From positions 1-34,095 of the forward strand of contig JAUZQK010000007.1 in NCBI GenBank assembly GCA_030951025.1: DNA of 34,095 nucleotides. The letters run 5' to 3'. The translations under genes and the position numbers were made by a program. Positions 7,012-14,701 of the stretch are shown here, in pieces. The notes below the pieces were generated by a model. The model was not told the DNA's origin and made no database searches. It saw nothing but the letters and a program-made list of their open reading frames with translations. This DNA is from Mariprofundus sp. (lineage in GTDB: Bacteria; Pseudomonadota; Zetaproteobacteria; Mariprofundales; Mariprofundaceae). Position 1 is the stretch's first letter. The number at the start of each line of letters is the position of its first letter.

Positions 7012-7782
7012 TCAGTGGCGTGGTGCTGAAGGATTTCCTGATGTGGATGGGCGAGCCACGGTCAGGAATGCTGCCACATTGGCAATGTCTTCATCACTCA
7101 ATCGGGCTGCAACGTTGCGCATTTGGCCCATGGGATCGTTATCACGGGCGGCATCGTCATCCGATGATGCTGTGCTGGCTCCCAGGCGAAAAGCCTCCAA
7201 CTCATGTTTTAAATAGGTGTAGTTCTGGCCGCCGATCATCGGGTACATATTACCCGCTGAACGGCCATTAAAAGCATGGCAACTTTGGCATGCGGGTATG
7301 CCGCGTTCCGGTATGCCGAAATGGACAATGATTTTTCCTTTATACATCAGGCCAATGTCATCGCCATTTTTACGCATGCTATCCAGGTCCGAGCCTAAAC
7401 TCGGAGTTTTTAACGCATGTGCATAAGCCGCTACATCCCGGCGTTGTTCGCGGGTCAATGCTTTGGCGATATCGTTCATCTGGTACATTTGATTGTCTTG
7501 ACGCTTGTCGGAAGCAAAGTCTTCCAATTGTTTCCAGATATATTTTTGAACCTGATACGCCAAACGTGGTGTGCCCATTTCATCGGAACCCATGCCGCCA
7601 GTGCCGTGGCAACCTGCACATGCAGGCACATCATCACCGAGCCCATTCTGATAAATGATGCGGCCATTGATGATGTTGCCCTGTGCTTCGCGAACACCGT
7701 CATGAATGCCTGCAGCAGATATGTTTATCGCCCCGACATTCAGTGCAACGACCATCCCGATAGAAATCATAAAACGTTTCAT
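7012..7782 (-). CDS. Diheme cytochrome c, c4-like, periplasmic
   Basis: A 256-residue secreted protein with two covalent heme sites: CAGCH (55-59) and CQSCH (165-169). The layout is two class I cytochrome domains in tandem, as in cytochrome c4, which shuttles electrons to terminal oxidases. Probable axial-Met regions are MGTPRLAYQ and NMYPMIGGQNYTYL; the latter resembles the c4 consensus. The signal peptide is MKRFMISIGMVVALNVGAIN with cleavage near ISAAG. The start at 7782 is set by GGGAGG nine bases upstream; an in-frame ATG five codons earlier is less likely. Two overlapping single-helix mini-ORFs lie just upstream in the same direction. No oxidase subunit genes lie in the window. Confidence 0.93.
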   Translation of the reverse strand: MKRFMISIGMVVALNVGAINISAAGIHDGVREAQGNIINGRIIYQNGLGDDVPACAGCHGTGGMGSDEMGTPRLAYQVQKYIWKQLEDFASDKRQDNQMYQMNDIAKALTREQRRDVAAYAHALKTPSLGSDLDSMRKNGDDIGLMYKGKIIVHFGIPERGIPACQSCHAFNGRSAGNMYPMIGGQNYTYLKHELEAFRLGASTASSDDDAARDNDPMGQMRNVAARLSDEDIANVAAFLTVARPSTSGNPSAPRH

Positions 7783-7820
7783 AAATCTGCCTCCCATGGC
7801 TGTTTGTTTTTAACGATGAA

Positions 7821-7904
7821 TCAAAGCGCTTCAATCAACATCAAGAGAGCCAGGATTAGTATCGAGCCGATGATGGGCGTACTTTTCCGCGATAATTTAT
7901 TCAT
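7821..7904 (-). CDS. 27-residue single-helix membrane mini-protein
   Basis: Twenty-seven codons, beginning MNKLSRKST and then a hydrophobic helix ending ALLMLIEAL. It has the best ribosome-binding site in the region: AGGAGG (7910-7915), five bases before ATG 7904. The basic N-terminus followed by one hydrophobic stretch predicts an N-in single-pass inner-membrane peptide. Its start overlaps the stop of the preceding mini-ORF (ATGA, 7901-7904), and the cytochrome c start is 38 bases downstream of its stop. The layout resembles small accessory subunits of respiratory complexes (CydX or CcoQ type), but I see no sequence identity to a named family; the function is unknown. Confidence 0.6.
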   Translation of the reverse strand: MNKLSRKSTPIIGSILILALLMLIEAL

Positions 7905-7987
7905 GATGACCTCCTGAATGCTTCTAGAGATATAAGTGCAATAGATATGCCAATGAGAAATAATAAAAAAACTGCGTTCTTTATCAT
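7901..7987 (-). CDS. 28-residue hydrophobic mini-protein, coupled to the next
   Basis: Twenty-eight codons: MIKNAVFLLFLIGISIALIS, then LEAFRRSS. It is one predicted membrane helix with a basic C-terminal end. The stop overlaps the ATG of the 27-residue gene as ATGA. The last codons AGG AGG double as the Shine-Dalgarno of that second gene, so the coding sequence and signal are interleaved. Its own Shine-Dalgarno is weak (an A-rich leader), which lowers confidence that it is translated. An in-frame ATT lies seven codons upstream, after a TAA. Confidence 0.45.
   Translation of the reverse strand: MIKNAVFLLFLIGISIALISLEAFRRSS
7910..7915 (-). promoter_or_regulatory. Strong Shine-Dalgarno for the 27-residue mini-gene
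   Basis: AGGAGG on the minus strand, five bases from the ATG at 7904. It is a perfect match to the anti-Shine-Dalgarno core and is the main reason to treat such a short frame as a gene. Confidence 0.75.
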
Positions 7988-8118
7988 TTTTTGTGCTTTG
8001 TTTTCAATGTCTTATGTTTTTTAAAGTGTGTTTTTATTGGTGTGTGATATTCTCTGGATTGAGAAGCTGCGCGGATTTAATCCCTGATTTTGGCAATGCA
8101 CTTTTGTGAATCAATCGT

Positions 8119-8988
8119 TTAACTGCAATGCGTGTTGTCATGCTCGCAGCAGTGGAACTCAGGTTGCAATGTAATATGCTCGATATGATGTTTTTGCAGG
8201 GTATCGCGTAAAGCTAGCAATATGTCCGGCCAATGTGACATATCTTCGATTTGCACGTGGGCTGAAACAGCCAGCTGTGTATTGGGTAAACGCCATAAAT
8301 GAATATGGTGGATATTTACAATACCAGTGTTTTTTTTCATGGCCGATTCGATGCGTTCAATATCGATTTCCTGTGGCAAGGCTTCCATTAACTCCAGTGT
8401 GGTTTCGCGCAATAAGCGCCAGCCACCCCATGCCAGAATACCGGCCACCAGAAAAGACAGTAACGGGTCAATCGGCATCCAGCCGGTCAAAACAATCACA
8501 CCACCGGCAATAATGGCTGCGACAGAGCCCAGCGCATCACCGAGTACATGCCAGTAAGCGGCACGGGTATTAAGATCATGGCTGCCATGCAACCAGCGCA
8601 TGATGATCAGATTAATCATCAACCCGATAGCCGCAATGAGCATCACCATGCCACCCTGAACGGTGGGTGGCTGGCTTAACCGGCCAATGGCCTCCCACAC
8701 GATCCAGGCGCTGAGCAGCCACAGCATGAAACCACTGAGCTGAGCTGCCAGCACTTTGGCACGACCATAACCATAACTCATCTGGGCATGGGCAGGTCGA
8801 TTGGCAATGTGATTGGCAAGCATCGCCAAGCCCAATGCTGCGACATCGGAAACCATGTGACCGGCATCGGCCAACAAAGCCAGCGAATTGGCCATGAGCC
8901 CACCAACCAGTTCCACCACCGCAAACACCGCCGTCAACCAGAAGGCGGCGTTCAAGGATGAATGATGATTGTGTCCAGCATGACTCAT
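8119..8988 (-). CDS. Cation diffusion facilitator (CzcD/ZitB-like) Zn2+ exporter
   Basis: A 289-residue CDF protein that exchanges cytoplasmic Zn2+ or similar divalent ions for protons. It has six membrane helices. The transport-site ligands are visible as HxxxD pairs: His44/Asp48 in LADAGHMVSDVA and His147/Asp151 in WHVLGDALGS. The His/Asp set is typical of the Zn-type CDF group. The N-terminus is His-rich (MSHAGHNHH) and the cytoplasmic C-terminal domain ends FHCCEHDNTHC, both possible metal-sensing tails. It is the last gene of the metal cluster, 99 bases after czcA, and may be read from the same transcript; it would feed ions into the periplasm for CzcCBA to export. The Shine-Dalgarno is weak. 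Confidence 0.92.
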   Translation of the reverse strand: MSHAGHNHHSSLNAAFWLTAVFAVVELVGGLMANSLALLADAGHMVSDVAALGLAMLANHIANRPAHAQMSYGYGRAKVLAAQLSGFMLWLLSAWIVWEAIGRLSQPPTVQGGMVMLIAAIGLMINLIIMRWLHGSHDLNTRAAYWHVLGDALGSVAAIIAGGVIVLTGWMPIDPLLSFLVAGILAWGGWRLLRETTLELMEALPQEIDIERIESAMKKNTGIVNIHHIHLWRLPNTQLAVSAHVQIEDMSHWPDILLALRDTLQKHHIEHITLQPEFHCCEHDNTHCS

Positions 8989-9087
8989 GTGGCGTTGACC
9001 ATTCGGATAAACATATATCGATTAGTGTGCATCAACGCGCATTCTGCCAAGCCCATGCAACAAATACGATTGTGAAAACATCATTTG

Positions 9088-12000
9088 TTATTTACCTCCA
9101 CTGAAGCGAGCAAACAAACAGGGCAAAACAAATAGCGTCAGCAGGGTGGAGGAGACCAGACCACCGACCACCACGGTGGCGAGAGGTTTCTGAATCTCCG
9201 AACCTATACCTGTTGCCAACAACAACGGAACAAGCCCTAAACCGGCAATCATGGCAGTCATCAGCACTGGCCTTAAACGACTCTCGGCACCATTGCAAAT
9301 GGCTTCATCAATATCTCTGCTATCACCCCGGTGGCGGTTGATCGCATCAACCAAGACCACGCCGTTGAGCACAGCCACCCCGAACAGGGCGATAAAACCG
9401 ATACTTGATGGTACCGATAAATACTGACCCGATGCCCACAAAGCCAGAATACCACCGATCAATGCCATCGGCACATTAAGCATAATCAACGTAGCCTGAC
9501 CGACGGAATGGAACATGAAGTAGAGCAGGATAAAGATCATCAATAACGATAGCGGCACCACGATCATCAGCTTGGCCTGAGCACGCTGCTGATTCTCGAA
9601 CTGGCCACCAAAGACCACCGTATAGCCCGGTGGCAAATCAATTTCATTCTGGATGCGCTGATCGAGTTCTGCCACCAACGAACCCATATCCCGATCTTCC
9701 ACATTGCTTTGAATCACCACCCGACGTTGCACATCATCACGTCTGATCATCGGTGGGCCTTGTTCCACGCCAATCGATGCAACATCCTGCAATCGCACCC
9801 AGGCTCCACTCGGCGCTTGCAGAATCAGATTGCCAATGGTTGCCGCATTATTGCGAAAATCCTTGGCCAGGCGCACATAGATATTATATCGCTCATTGCC
9901 GGAAATCACTTGCCCGGCAGTTGCACCGCCAATGGCATCAGCCACCAGACTCATGACATCATCAACCGGGATACCGTAACGGTCCAGCTTGGCGCGATCC
10001 GGGCTAATCACCAATTGCGCTTCGCCTTCGATCTGCTCCATCGCTACATCACGTGTGCCTTTAACACTCTTGGTCAGCGTTTCGATCTTTTTACCCATCG
10101 TCGCCAATACTTTGAGATCAGGGCCAAAGAGCTTGATCGCCAAAGCAGCTTTGACACCAGAAATCAACTCATCCACACGCATGGCAATAGGCTGGGTGAA
10201 TGCAATCAACAAGCCAGGTACCACCTCCATTTTTTCGCGCATTAGCTTCTGCAAAGCCAACCTGTCGCTGGCACTGGTCCATTCTTCAACGGCTTTCAGA
10301 CCAACAAAAAGTTCAATATTGGATACAGGCTCTGGGTCACCACCAATTTCTGCCCTTCCGACGCGGGATGAGACATAAGTCACTTCCGGAAATGATTCAA
10401 CCAGTATCTTCTCCAGCTTTTGCCCCGTATCTTTGGCAAAGCCCAACGATGAGGATGGAGCCAATGTCACACGAATAGCCAGCGTTCCCTCTTCCAGTTC
10501 AGGTACGAACTCTGTACCCAAAAAGGGAACAATGGCGATGCTTAAGACAAAAGCCACAGCCGCACCAGCGACAACTTTCTTGCGCGCTTTTAAGGCTGAG
10601 CGCAGCAGACGATGGTAAGCGCGTGCAATGGGAGCCAGCACCGGGCTTTCTTTATGCACGATACCCTTGGTAAACACATAGGTTGCCAATACAGGCATGA
10701 CAAACAGAGCCACCAGTAATGAAGCAAACATGGCGAAACAAATCGACAGCGCCATCGGTGTAAACATCTTGCCTTCCACACCTTCGAGTGAGAATAACGG
10801 CGTGAATACCAGCAGAATAATCAATACCGCAAACAATACCGGCCGCGCCACTTCTTTGGATGCTTCAGTAATACGCAACGGGATGCCAGCTCTGTTTTTT
10901 TGGCCATAATCACCATCCGGTGTTTTCTCCAAATGTTTGAAGATATTTTCCACCATCACCACCGATCCATCGACCATCATGCCGATGGCAATCGCCAAGC
11001 CGCCCAAACTCATCAGATTGGCTGAAATACCGTAATGCTCCATCACGGCGAGCGCGGATAACACCGAGATTGGTACGGATAATAATACCAGAGTCGCCGC
11101 CCGCACATTCATCAGGAACAGAAACAAAATAATGATGATCAACACAAAGGCTTCGAGTAAGGCTTTTTCCACTGTCCAAACGGCTTTGTTGATCAAGTCC
11201 GACTGATCGTAAAACGGTTGAATGGTGACACCCTTCGGCATGGATTTTTGCACAATTTCAAGCCGTGATTTCACATCATCAATGGTGTTTTTGGTATTCG
11301 CACCAAAGCGTTTGAGCACAATACCCACCACCACTTCACCCAGCGATTTAGCACTGCCATCTGCAGCACGCTCCGTCATGGTGACTGCGCCTTGGCGAAT
11401 TTCACCGCCAAAAGCCACTTCGGCCACATCACGTACACGAATCGACGTGCCATTGACGGTTTTGACCGGAATCGCCGCAATCGCCGCAAGGCCATCTTTA
11501 CCACCGGGCACCCAGCCCACACCACGAATCACCAACTGCTCATCACCCTGCGGTAAATACCAGCCACCGGCATTGCGATTGTTCGCTTCAATAGCCGTCA
11601 CCACATCGGACACATGCAGATTGTAGGAGAGCAAGCGCTCGGCATTGAGCTGCACCTGATATTGGCGTATCTCACCACCGTAGGAGAGGATATCGGTTAC
11701 ACCAGCAACCGGCATCAGCATCAATTTAACCACCCAGTCGTTCAAGGCACGCAGTGTTAAAGCATCATAACCAGCCTCAGGGTCGGCTTTGATAATGTAC
11801 TGAAATACCTGACCAAGGCCGGAGGTGTTTGGCCCGACTTTAGGTGTGCCTGCCCAGGATGGAACCGTCTGACGGGCATCCTGCAGCTTTTGAAATACCA
11901 ACTGGCGGGCAAAATAAATGTCGGTTCCTTCTTTGAATACCACCGTAATCACAGATAAACCTGTTTTGGAAATCGAACGCACTTCTTCCACATCCGGCAA

Positions 12001-12225
12001 GGAGTACATCACCGCCTCAATTGGATAGGTAATAATTTGCTCAACTTCTTCAGAGGCCAGTCCTTGCGCTTCGGTATTGATCTGCACCTGCACATTGGTG
12101 ACATCGGGAAAGGCATCGAGATTCAGTTTTGGTACGACAAATAAAGCATAGGCCATCGAACCAATCAGCAGCATGAGAATCAGTAGGCGATTGTTGATCG
12201 CCGCATCAATCATTTTAGGAAACAT
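9088..12225 (-). CDS. czcA: CzcA-like heavy-metal RND pump
   Basis: A 1045-residue inner-membrane RND transporter of the heavy-metal efflux (HME) family, driving proton-coupled export of divalent cations through CzcB and CzcC. The length is typical. TM1 is followed by the porter motif LDAFPDVTNVQVQINT; TM4 carries GMMVDGSVVMVEN (about 415-427) with the proton-relay Asp419. That pattern matches divalent-metal members better than the Cu/Ag CusA type, which reads GAMVDAA there. Further helices include FIALFGVAVLNGVVLVDAIN and MIAGLGLVPLLLATG. The start is preceded by GAGGT and lies 11 bases after the czcB stop. Exact metal cannot be read from the sequence. Confidence 0.95.
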   Translation of the reverse strand: MFPKMIDAAINNRLLILMLLIGSMAYALFVVPKLNLDAFPDVTNVQVQINTEAQGLASEEVEQIITYPIEAVMYSLPDVEEVRSISKTGLSVITVVFKEGTDIYFARQLVFQKLQDARQTVPSWAGTPKVGPNTSGLGQVFQYIIKADPEAGYDALTLRALNDWVVKLMLMPVAGVTDILSYGGEIRQYQVQLNAERLLSYNLHVSDVVTAIEANNRNAGGWYLPQGDEQLVIRGVGWVPGGKDGLAAIAAIPVKTVNGTSIRVRDVAEVAFGGEIRQGAVTMTERAADGSAKSLGEVVVGIVLKRFGANTKNTIDDVKSRLEIVQKSMPKGVTIQPFYDQSDLINKAVWTVEKALLEAFVLIIIILFLFLMNVRAATLVLLSVPISVLSALAVMEHYGISANLMSLGGLAIAIGMMVDGSVVMVENIFKHLEKTPDGDYGQKNRAGIPLRITEASKEVARPVLFAVLIILLVFTPLFSLEGVEGKMFTPMALSICFAMFASLLVALFVMPVLATYVFTKGIVHKESPVLAPIARAYHRLLRSALKARKKVVAGAAVAFVLSIAIVPFLGTEFVPELEEGTLAIRVTLAPSSSLGFAKDTGQKLEKILVESFPEVTYVSSRVGRAEIGGDPEPVSNIELFVGLKAVEEWTSASDRLALQKLMREKMEVVPGLLIAFTQPIAMRVDELISGVKAALAIKLFGPDLKVLATMGKKIETLTKSVKGTRDVAMEQIEGEAQLVISPDRAKLDRYGIPVDDVMSLVADAIGGATAGQVISGNERYNIYVRLAKDFRNNAATIGNLILQAPSGAWVRLQDVASIGVEQGPPMIRRDDVQRRVVIQSNVEDRDMGSLVAELDQRIQNEIDLPPGYTVVFGGQFENQQRAQAKLMIVVPLSLLMIFILLYFMFHSVGQATLIMLNVPMALIGGILALWASGQYLSVPSSIGFIALFGVAVLNGVVLVDAINRHRGDSRDIDEAICNGAESRLRPVLMTAMIAGLGLVPLLLATGIGSEIQKPLATVVVGGLVSSTLLTLFVLPCLFARFSGGK

Positions 12226-12236
12226 AGTCTGTTACC

Positions 12237-13463
12237 TCAATGGTTGTGCACTTCAAAGCCGGCTTTCGCCAACTCTGAAGCGAGCACAAATGCGCCCTGC
12301 ACAACAACGGATTCACCCGCCTTTACGCCTTTGCGAATCGCAACCATACCCATGCTGGCCTTGCTGGTTTCCACTTCACGGCGTTCAAAGTGACCCGGCT
12401 CTTCTTCCACAAAAACAATCAATTCGCTACCCTGACGCTGGACAGCATGTGCTGAAATCAACAAAGCCTGTTGACCTGAACTGGTGCCAATTTCGACGCT
12501 GACAAACATGCCCGGATGCAATTGATCATTATTATTGCGAATACTCAAACGTACGCCGGCAGTGCGTGTGACGGCATCGAGTTGATGATGGATATTGATC
12601 ACCTTGCCTTGGTAATGTGCGTTGGAACCTTTCGGCATCACCGATGCAGCTTGGCCTACCCGAACGCTTGGCAACAGTGTTTCCGGTATTTTGACTTCTA
12701 CCCAAACATACGATTCATCCACAATCTGCATCAAGCGAGTACCTGCTGCCAAATGCTGGCCGAGACGAAAATCATCGGCGACAACAGTGCCTGCATGTGG
12801 CGCACGTAAAGTCAGCAGACCATAAACCTCCTGTCTCAACAAGCTGGAAATATCCGCTTTATTCAAACCATAAGAATACAGGCTTGCCCGAGCCGCTGCT
12901 AAATTAGCATGCATGGCTTGATAGGTGCTTTGTGCCTGCTGCAAACGGGCTTGGGAGACAATATTTTGCTGCGCCAGTTTTTTCAACCGCCCCAGTTCCT
13001 GTTTGCTGCGATTGTGTTCGGCGCGGGCTTTGAGGTAATCCGCTTCAGCTTGTGCAAGCGTGGTACTGTTCAGCGTCACCAGTTTTTGCCCCTTGCGCAC
13101 CTGATCACCCAGACGCACATGGCGTGCATGCACGATGGCATCGACCACTGTCGTAATATCAGCCAGAGCATAGGCATTAAAGTCGATTGTACCGGGCGCA
13201 CTCAGCGTTTGCATTTCCGCACGCATGGTCAGGGTTTCGGTAACAATGCCAGCTTGTTTGATTTGAGCTGGAGTTAGCTTGATCAGGCCACTTTCTTCAT
13301 GGCCACCATGTTCGCCGGCATGCCCTTTATCGGAATGACCGGATTCTTCTTGATCATGCCCATGTTCACCGGCCATGACTGGCGCACTGATAAACACCAG
13401 CATGGCTGTTAAAACTACCGTTATTGTTTTCATGGTTGAATTGTTCATAACTGCATTGTTCAT
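12237..13463 (-). CDS. czcB: CzcB-like periplasmic adaptor (membrane fusion protein)
   Basis: A 408-residue adaptor joining CzcA to the outer-membrane channel. The signal peptide region is MKTITVVLTAMLVFISAPVM, starting ten residues into the protein. A His/Glu-rich stretch follows (GEHGHDQEESGHSDKGHAGE) as a likely metal-binding tail. Next come the lipoyl/barrel-sandwich halves (VVDAIVHARHVRLGDQVRKG and LRAPHAGTVVADDFRLGQHL) flanking an alpha-hairpin, then beta-barrel and membrane-proximal domains. I choose ATG 13463 because it overlaps the czcC stop (ATGA 13460-13463) with a GGA upstream. In-frame ATGs at 13448 and 13433 are alternatives, the last starting directly at the signal peptide. Confidence 0.93.
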   Translation of the reverse strand: MNNAVMNNSTMKTITVVLTAMLVFISAPVMAGEHGHDQEESGHSDKGHAGEHGGHEESGLIKLTPAQIKQAGIVTETLTMRAEMQTLSAPGTIDFNAYALADITTVVDAIVHARHVRLGDQVRKGQKLVTLNSTTLAQAEADYLKARAEHNRSKQELGRLKKLAQQNIVSQARLQQAQSTYQAMHANLAAARASLYSYGLNKADISSLLRQEVYGLLTLRAPHAGTVVADDFRLGQHLAAGTRLMQIVDESYVWVEVKIPETLLPSVRVGQAASVMPKGSNAHYQGKVINIHHQLDAVTRTAGVRLSIRNNNDQLHPGMFVSVEIGTSSGQQALLISAHAVQRQGSELIVFVEEEPGHFERREVETSKASMGMVAIRKGVKAGESVVVQGAFVLASELAKAGFEVHNH

Positions 13464-14701
13464 GACTGAATTCCTTTGAGTATATATTCGGGATGACCAA
13501 GCACTTCGGCCAGTCGAATGCGTGCAAACCACGCCTGTTGTATGATTTCCAGTGCCGTCATGCGGGCATCGAGCCCCTGACGGATATGCACCACCAGCTC
13601 TTCCAGATCCAACTCACCAGCATCGTAGGCTTTCTGGGCCAGGCTGATGGTGTTCTTGGCACTCTGCTGCATGTGTGAACTGATGATGCCGGATAGCGCC
13701 AGCATGGCATTGGCATGATTATCGACTGCACTTTGCACAGCATAACGTAGCTGCTGGGTAGACCAGTCTAGGCCGGTACTTACCCGTTCCTGCTCAGCCA
13801 GTGCTGCACGGTAAGCGCCTTTATGGCTGTTGAGTACAGGGATCGGCATGGTAAAGCCCAATTTAATCAGGTTTTCACCGGCTTCACGACCTGTCATCGC
13901 GCTGACGGTGATATCAGGCAAACGTGTCGCATTGGCCAAATCCACCTGTGCTTCGGATTGTCTAAGCTTTGCCCGCAAGGCTGCCAGGTCAGGGCGTGAT
14001 TTTAGTGCCATGGCGTAGGCATCTGCAGGTGGCTGCCAGCTTGTTTGCAGCTTAGGCAGGGGGTGCTTGCTGCTCAAGGGGCTTGAGACATTGCCGAGCG
14101 CGGTTAAATAAGCCTGTTTGCTGCGGGTTAAAATTTGCCTGGCGACGGTGGTGGCATTGAGAGCCGATGAAAAAGCCGATTGCGCCAAATTGGCATCGAG
14201 CTGACTGGATTGGCCGAGCTTGAGTTGTAGCGCTACAGCATGGCTGACTTTTTTTAACATCGAGCTTTGCTGGCTGCGTAATTCCAATGCCTGCTCGGTA
14301 AAATACAGCGCCACATAAGCGTTGGCCGCAGCAATCATCAGTTGTTGGCGGGTGTTACTTTTGTGCTGATTCATTTGATTCAACACAGCCTGAGCCGATT
14401 GCTCTCGAAAGCCTTGTTTGCCGGCTGTTTCGATGCTCTGTGACAGGGTAATATAATAATCATTGCTGCTGCCACCGCCATTAAGGCGACGACGCTGTGG
14501 TTCCAGACTCAGTTCTGGATTATAGGCATAAGCGCTTTGCTCGCTTAGATTGCCTTGGGCGGCGGCAATCTGCTGCTCGGCCATTTGCAGCATGGGATGC
14601 TGTTCAACAGCAGTTTCCATAGCTTGTTGTAAGCTATCGGCATGGCTAAGAATGGGTTGAATGCATAATAACATTCCAATCGTTAAAAATAGTGTGCGCA
14701 C
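13460..14701 (-). CDS. czcC: CzcC-like outer-membrane efflux channel (TolC family)
   Basis: A 413-residue outer-membrane efflux protein with a signal peptide (RTLFLTIGMLLCIQPILSHA) and two OEP repeats rich in long helices. Internal coiled-coil-like segments such as QQIAAAQGNLSEQSAYAYNP and EAQVDLANATRLPDITVSAM are typical of the family. It provides the exit duct for CzcA/CzcB. The start is GTG at 14701, supported by GGGGGA a few bases upstream; the first in-frame ATG (codon 10) would cut the signal peptide. It overlaps czcB by four bases. Confidence 0.92.
   Translation of the reverse strand: MRTLFLTIGMLLCIQPILSHADSLQQAMETAVEQHPMLQMAEQQIAAAQGNLSEQSAYAYNPELSLEPQRRRLNGGGSSNDYYITLSQSIETAGKQGFREQSAQAVLNQMNQHKSNTRQQLMIAAANAYVALYFTEQALELRSQQSSMLKKVSHAVALQLKLGQSSQLDANLAQSAFSSALNATTVARQILTRSKQAYLTALGNVSSPLSSKHPLPKLQTSWQPPADAYAMALKSRPDLAALRAKLRQSEAQVDLANATRLPDITVSAMTGREAGENLIKLGFTMPIPVLNSHKGAYRAALAEQERVSTGLDWSTQQLRYAVQSAVDNHANAMLALSGIISSHMQQSAKNTISLAQKAYDAGELDLEELVVHIRQGLDARMTALEIIQQAWFARIRLAEVLGHPEYILKGIQS

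Follow-up and report, generated by a model that had tools for sequence, protein, structure and literature searches.

A probable single-helix miniprotein gene ahead of a duplicated cyc1-like cytochrome gene in a Mariprofundaceae genome

In current models of marine iron oxidisers, periplasmic carriers such as Cyc1 connect the iron oxidase of the outer membrane with the terminal oxidase; to our knowledge, the docking of such carriers at the inner membrane is not established. The locus described here carries two tiny hydrophobic frames directly ahead of a diheme cytochrome gene, and it raises the question whether either frame is a gene and, if so, whether its product has anything to do with the cytochrome. 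The window, that is the whole stretch of 34,095 nucleotides that was analysed, is contig C131 of a Mariprofundaceae (Zetaproteobacteria) MAG of 2.2 Mb in 163 contigs.

Layout of the locus

The initial annotation had described two consecutive minus-strand frames of 28 and 27 codons, each encoding one hydrophobic helix, and both are present (ORF1 and ORF2, Table 1). The finer details which it gave are equally accurate: ATGA is common to the ORF1 stop and the ORF2 start, the AGGAGG ahead of ORF2 doubles as Arg-Arg codons of ORF1, and 38 bases separate the ORF2 stop from the cytochrome ATG at 7782. Both frames are carried by a minus-strand spacer of 336 bases that separates the CDF gene from the cytochrome gene and has a GC content of 0.37, compared with 0.44-0.52 in almost every other contig. 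CDF/CzcA genes and an EI24/CysZ-like gene flank the locus.

Table 1. Features in and around the spacer, with positions in the window
Feature	Position	Strand	Description
ORF1	7901-7987	(-)	28 codons, ATG start, single hydrophobic helix, MIKNAVFLLFLIGISIALISLEAFRRSS; probably not a gene (leader or promoter-like DNA)
ORF2	7821-7904	(-)	27 codons, ATG start, single hydrophobic helix, Lys/Arg-rich N-terminus, MNKLSRKSTPIIGSILILALLMLIEAL; probable species-specific miniprotein gene
Shine-Dalgarno of ORF2, AGGAGG	7910-7915	(-)	AGGAGG-TCATC-ATG, 5-base spacing
Diheme cytochrome c gene (c4/Cyc1-like), second copy in the genome	7012-7782	(-)	Pfam and PDB matches, two CXXCH, 79% paralogue
Weak sigma-70-like hexamer pair, 9/12	7960-7987	(-)	Overlaps the ORF1 start
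CDF cation efflux gene (ZitB/CzcD-like)	8119-8988	(-)	Upstream; last gene of the CzcCBA-type metal efflux cluster 8119-14701

No minus-strand terminator was detected near the spacer, including between the CDF gene and the ORFs; with none detected after the CzcC/CzcB/CzcA and CDF cluster, co-transcription of the cluster with this cytochrome copy is possible. The sigma-70-like pair is by itself no evidence of a promoter, since one such match was found where 3.9 are expected by chance. A search for structured RNAs and riboswitches at the spacer returned none, and positions 7600-8250 gave no match in Rfam.

The segment holding both frames is bracketed by copies of an 8-base direct repeat, TGAATCAA, one at 7817-7824 and the other at 8107-8114. 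A small mobile element was considered and rejected, as by rough count the repeat is about what chance would give and matching terminal inverted repeats are absent.

Coding potential of the two frames

Frames of 20-60 codons beginning with ATG and carrying a helix as hydrophobic as those of the two ORFs (2.85 and 2.71) were sought in shuffled versions of the spacer. A single frame of this kind appeared in 0.06-0.4% of the shuffles; an adjacent pair at the strict threshold appeared in none of 20,000 dinucleotide shuffles and none of 5,000 block shuffles, and with the looser threshold in no more than 1 of 5,000. Within the 517 kb of the genome examined, which gave 208 intergenic strands, no second such pair was found, and eight frames pass the hydrophobicity filter, one of them being a conserved small gene ahead of the paralogous cytochrome (see below). 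The pair statistic, however, draws mainly on ORF2, since the coding tests speak against ORF1.

By the coding tests, which were chosen after the region had been inspected, were each run on this one locus and give uncorrected P values, the two frames differ. ORF2 has a Shine-Dalgarno matching at 6/6 positions at 5-base spacing (chance 0.00085), a synonymous-codon score of +2.2 bits, which is within the native gene range whereas noncoding DNA averages -8.7 (P 0.012), and a GC3 of 0.59. It also shows a T bias at codon position 2, whose P of 0.006 is not to be multiplied with the others because T at this position overlaps with hydrophobicity. Three other small membrane frames of the genome, including the conserved small gene of the paralogue, have codon scores of -5 to +9. 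ORF1 has no Shine-Dalgarno, and its synonymous-codon score is -19 bits, or -14.9 without its two AGG codons, the minimum of 5,080 gene windows being -14.0; its codon choice fits noncoding DNA.

Taken at the level of sequence statistics, ORF2 is probably a real, species-specific single-helix miniprotein gene, and the initial view that its Shine-Dalgarno argued against a chance frame gains support from codon choice and T bias, which likewise give it the look of a translated frame. With no Shine-Dalgarno and a codon score below every sampled gene window, ORF1 is probably not a gene, and AT-rich leader or promoter-like DNA is the more fitting description. The picture of twin frames as two equal genes is not upheld.

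No homologues of either peptide were found in 78 genomes of the class, in Pfam (up to E 10), NCBIfam or PHROGs, or among plasmids. Matches in the 78 genomes were all weak (E above 0.2), and two which were checked fell within or over other genes. The initial annotation had held that relatives which keep the cytochrome gene but conserve neither peptide would refute its reading, and as far as orthologous conservation is concerned this is, formally, the outcome. The spacer DNA gave nothing beyond short chance matches when compared with relatives, plasmids and phages, and a joined 54-residue reading of both frames matched no family. Amongst the candidate origins rejected is a duplication of ORF1 into ORF2, which had been suggested from the resemblance of the two helix ends; the likeness is not above chance (BLOSUM62 score 17, null mean 22, P 0.94; DNA P 0.65). 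CydX, CcoQ and KdpF-like families were likewise rejected for the two ORFs, there being no Pfam match.

The cytochrome gene and the slot before it

The cytochrome matches Pfam Cytochrom_C at 8.6e-21 and the solved c4 cytochromes 1etp, 6q2u and 1h1o in the PDB at E 7e-16 to 7e-17, the last of which is the diheme cytochrome of Acidithiobacillus ferrooxidans. In its reading of 261 residues CXXCH occurs at 60 and at 170, and it thus has the features of a c4/Cyc1-like diheme protein, namely two class-I c domains with one CXXCH apiece and similarity to solved c4 proteins. Its ATG at 7782 has GGGAGG upstream and agrees with the start of the paralogue, and an ATG at 7797 is a longer upstream alternative. 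Its relatives in named records are Mariprofundaceae/Zetaproteobacteria MAGs. Two single-contig genomes lack the cytochrome, as does one entire genus of the same family; we infer that it is cyc1-like because this distribution is similar to the one published for cyc1, a gene missing from strains CP-5 and CP-8 and from ZOTU9 (PMC5513912, PMC7029218).

A paralogue with 79% identity occurs on contig C124 of the same genome, and the tree joins the two copies as sisters (support 92/81). Synonymous sites are saturated between them, so that the duplication cannot be very recent unless the tree has joined them imperfectly. Upstream of the genes, the DNA of one copy gave no alignment with that of the other (score 28, against a null mean of 29.6).

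A survey of 45 cytochrome copies from draft genomes of Mariprofundales, in which small proteins were sought by a motif tuned to the family, revealed a conserved protein of 42-49 residues with a single predicted helix encoded directly upstream of 40 copies, including the C124 paralogue, where its gene has 44 codons (L031, G000:C124:9884-10018). In most of those listed the small gene is preceded by GGGAGG or a close variant. The consensus is approximately MLxxFIEASVxFQNxDVxxxYxx, after which come the helix and a charged tail (alignment A1), and dN/dS is 0.10-0.50 over 12 pairs, a 13th pair being not computable owing to saturated synonymous sites. In 299 genomes of the phylum, members of the family turned up in the order Mariprofundales alone. 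It has no PDB sequence match, the members scanned gave no significant match in Pfam or NCBIfam (the best Pfam score being under the cut-off), and no description of it was found in the literature searched, of which coverage was partial.

The window copy does not carry this protein. It is one of five such copies, all of them secondary paralogues, for which the tree needs at least three changes. The other four lack both the conserved protein and any hydrophobic mini-ORF comparable to ORF2, and the partner may therefore not be needed. ORF2 resembles the conserved proteins in its slot directly upstream of the cytochrome gene, in having its own Shine-Dalgarno and one helix, and in lying tens of bases from the cytochrome ATG (38 bases from its stop, compared with 31 for the small gene of the paralogue). 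It differs from them in its length of 27 residues and in its residues: among the conserved A1 positions (Tyr, E7, S9, F12), ORF2 is without the E-x-S-x-x-F and the Tyr is absent from both peptides. Against the A1 profile ORF2 scores 3.5 bits and ORF1 1.5 bits, as compared with 82.9 for a true member, which places both outside the family. Descent of ORF2 from the conserved protein was rejected on this profile score and on a P of 0.11 against shuffles.

A weaker branch of the small-protein family occurs in nine places. At the three that were read (L196:3566-3751, L194 and L198), the small protein adjoins a predicted protein of about 450 residues with a single N-terminal CXXCH, together with a His-rich membrane protein; by eye the former resembles Cyc2-type cytochrome-porins, and it has no Pfam or NCBIfam match. 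At G003:C3:1403601-1403873 the match to a cyc1-like gene covered just its first third, with the conserved small protein before it, and the gene there may be masked, broken or divergent.

Readings of the locus and known small membrane proteins

The reading that we favour, to which we would give about an even chance, is that of a duplicated cytochrome without its partner, in which ORF2 is a new single-helix miniprotein in the vacant slot and ORF1 is leader DNA. The sequence shows that the second copy of the cyc1-like gene, which lies behind the heavy-metal efflux cluster, has its coding sequence and is without the 44-codon partner gene of the original copy. Translation of ORF2 would begin at a strong Shine-Dalgarno of its own, a short way before the cytochrome gene, and, as the sequence statistics suggest, would yield a species-specific miniprotein inserted by one helix in the inner membrane; the AT-rich leader would contribute the last part of the ORF1 frame as the ORF2 ribosome-binding site. 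Judging by position and topology, ORF2 would most likely take over, locally, the role of the lost partner, its helix docking, anchoring or helping to mature the periplasmic c4 cytochrome near a membrane oxidase. For M. ferrooxydans PV-1, a strain reported to be without ccoQ (PMC3179512), Cyc1 and the cbb3 oxidase have been proposed to interact (as reported in PMC5513912), and a helix near the Cyc1-cbb3 junction would make sense in the light of both. A wider proposal, that Cyc1-type cytochromes of Zetaproteobacteria work with a dedicated, undescribed single-helix subunit and that the duplicate replaced it by the unrelated, new 27-residue ORF2 in a non-orthologous replacement like that of CydX/CydY, is offered tentatively and is rather doubtful.

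It is possible, though on balance unlikely, that neither frame is a gene and that the two are hydrophobic by chance, lying in AT-rich spacer DNA which remained after insertion of the cytochrome gene behind the efflux genes. The failure of every search to find homologues, the noncoding-like codons of ORF1, the four secondary copies without a comparable ORF and the low GC of the spacer all agree with such an origin; however, the adjacent pair was never reproduced in the dinucleotide shuffles, and the Shine-Dalgarno, gene-like codons and T-position bias of ORF2 are each unlikely by chance. If, on the contrary, both frames were real and translationally coupled, they might form a two-peptide membrane unit. 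An ATGA overlap is typical of coupled genes and both helices are strongly hydrophobic, but the missing Shine-Dalgarno of ORF1, its codon choice outside the native range, the unlikeness of the two peptides and the lack of conservation in relatives render this improbable.

ORF2 may instead be a hydrophobic stress peptide, perhaps linked to metal stress in view of its location behind the CzcCBA/CDF genes with no detected terminator between. TisB is within 27-29 residues in size and, like ORF2, has one helix, and the size and topology of ORF2 also match those of YohP (27 residues, single helix; PMC12719787, PMC7549839). We nevertheless consider this explanation quite improbable, as there is no Rfam match, no evidence of an antisense RNA or of a link to stress and no sequence family, and as the position and spacing of ORF2 match the slot of the cytochrome partner better. 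The least credible explanation is a relict of a decayed membrane-protein gene whose helices have come to lie in two frames; although two hydrophobic stretches in adjacent frames without homologues are consistent with a pseudogene, the joined reading belongs to no family and a strong Shine-Dalgarno at the ORF2 start would be unexpected midway in a decayed gene.

Encoded ahead of cyc1-like genes throughout the order and missing from the curated families that were searched, the conserved one-helix protein makes a concrete candidate for a partner of these carriers. The duplicated copy without it implies either that the partner is dispensable or that a new one-helix peptide arose in its place, and the window thus offers a small case for the birth of respiratory microproteins.

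The suggestion in the initial annotation of a tiny single-helix companion for the cytochrome fits the cytochrome family, because 40 of the 45 copies carry a conserved small protein in that slot. The known subunits which it had named as examples, and which in its view neither peptide resembled, fit less well: the motif speaks against CydX, and both the family match and the neighbouring genes against CcoQ. CcoQ/FixQ of the cbb3 oxidase is likewise a small single-helix respiratory subunit, but the ORFs have no Pfam match to it and no ccoNOQP operon or other cco genes alongside. The CydX motif, YxxWxxGx15E/D (PMC4325964), is absent from both peptides, which contain neither Tyr nor Trp, and no cydAB is found among the flanking genes. 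What the ORFs would have in common with CydX, CydY and CydZ of the cytochrome bd oxidase is a tiny single-helix protein encoded together with a respiratory protein; these three, mutually unrelated single-helix proteins in cydAB operons (PMC4325964), are a documented precedent for different helices in one type of operon, as the favoured reading would have it.
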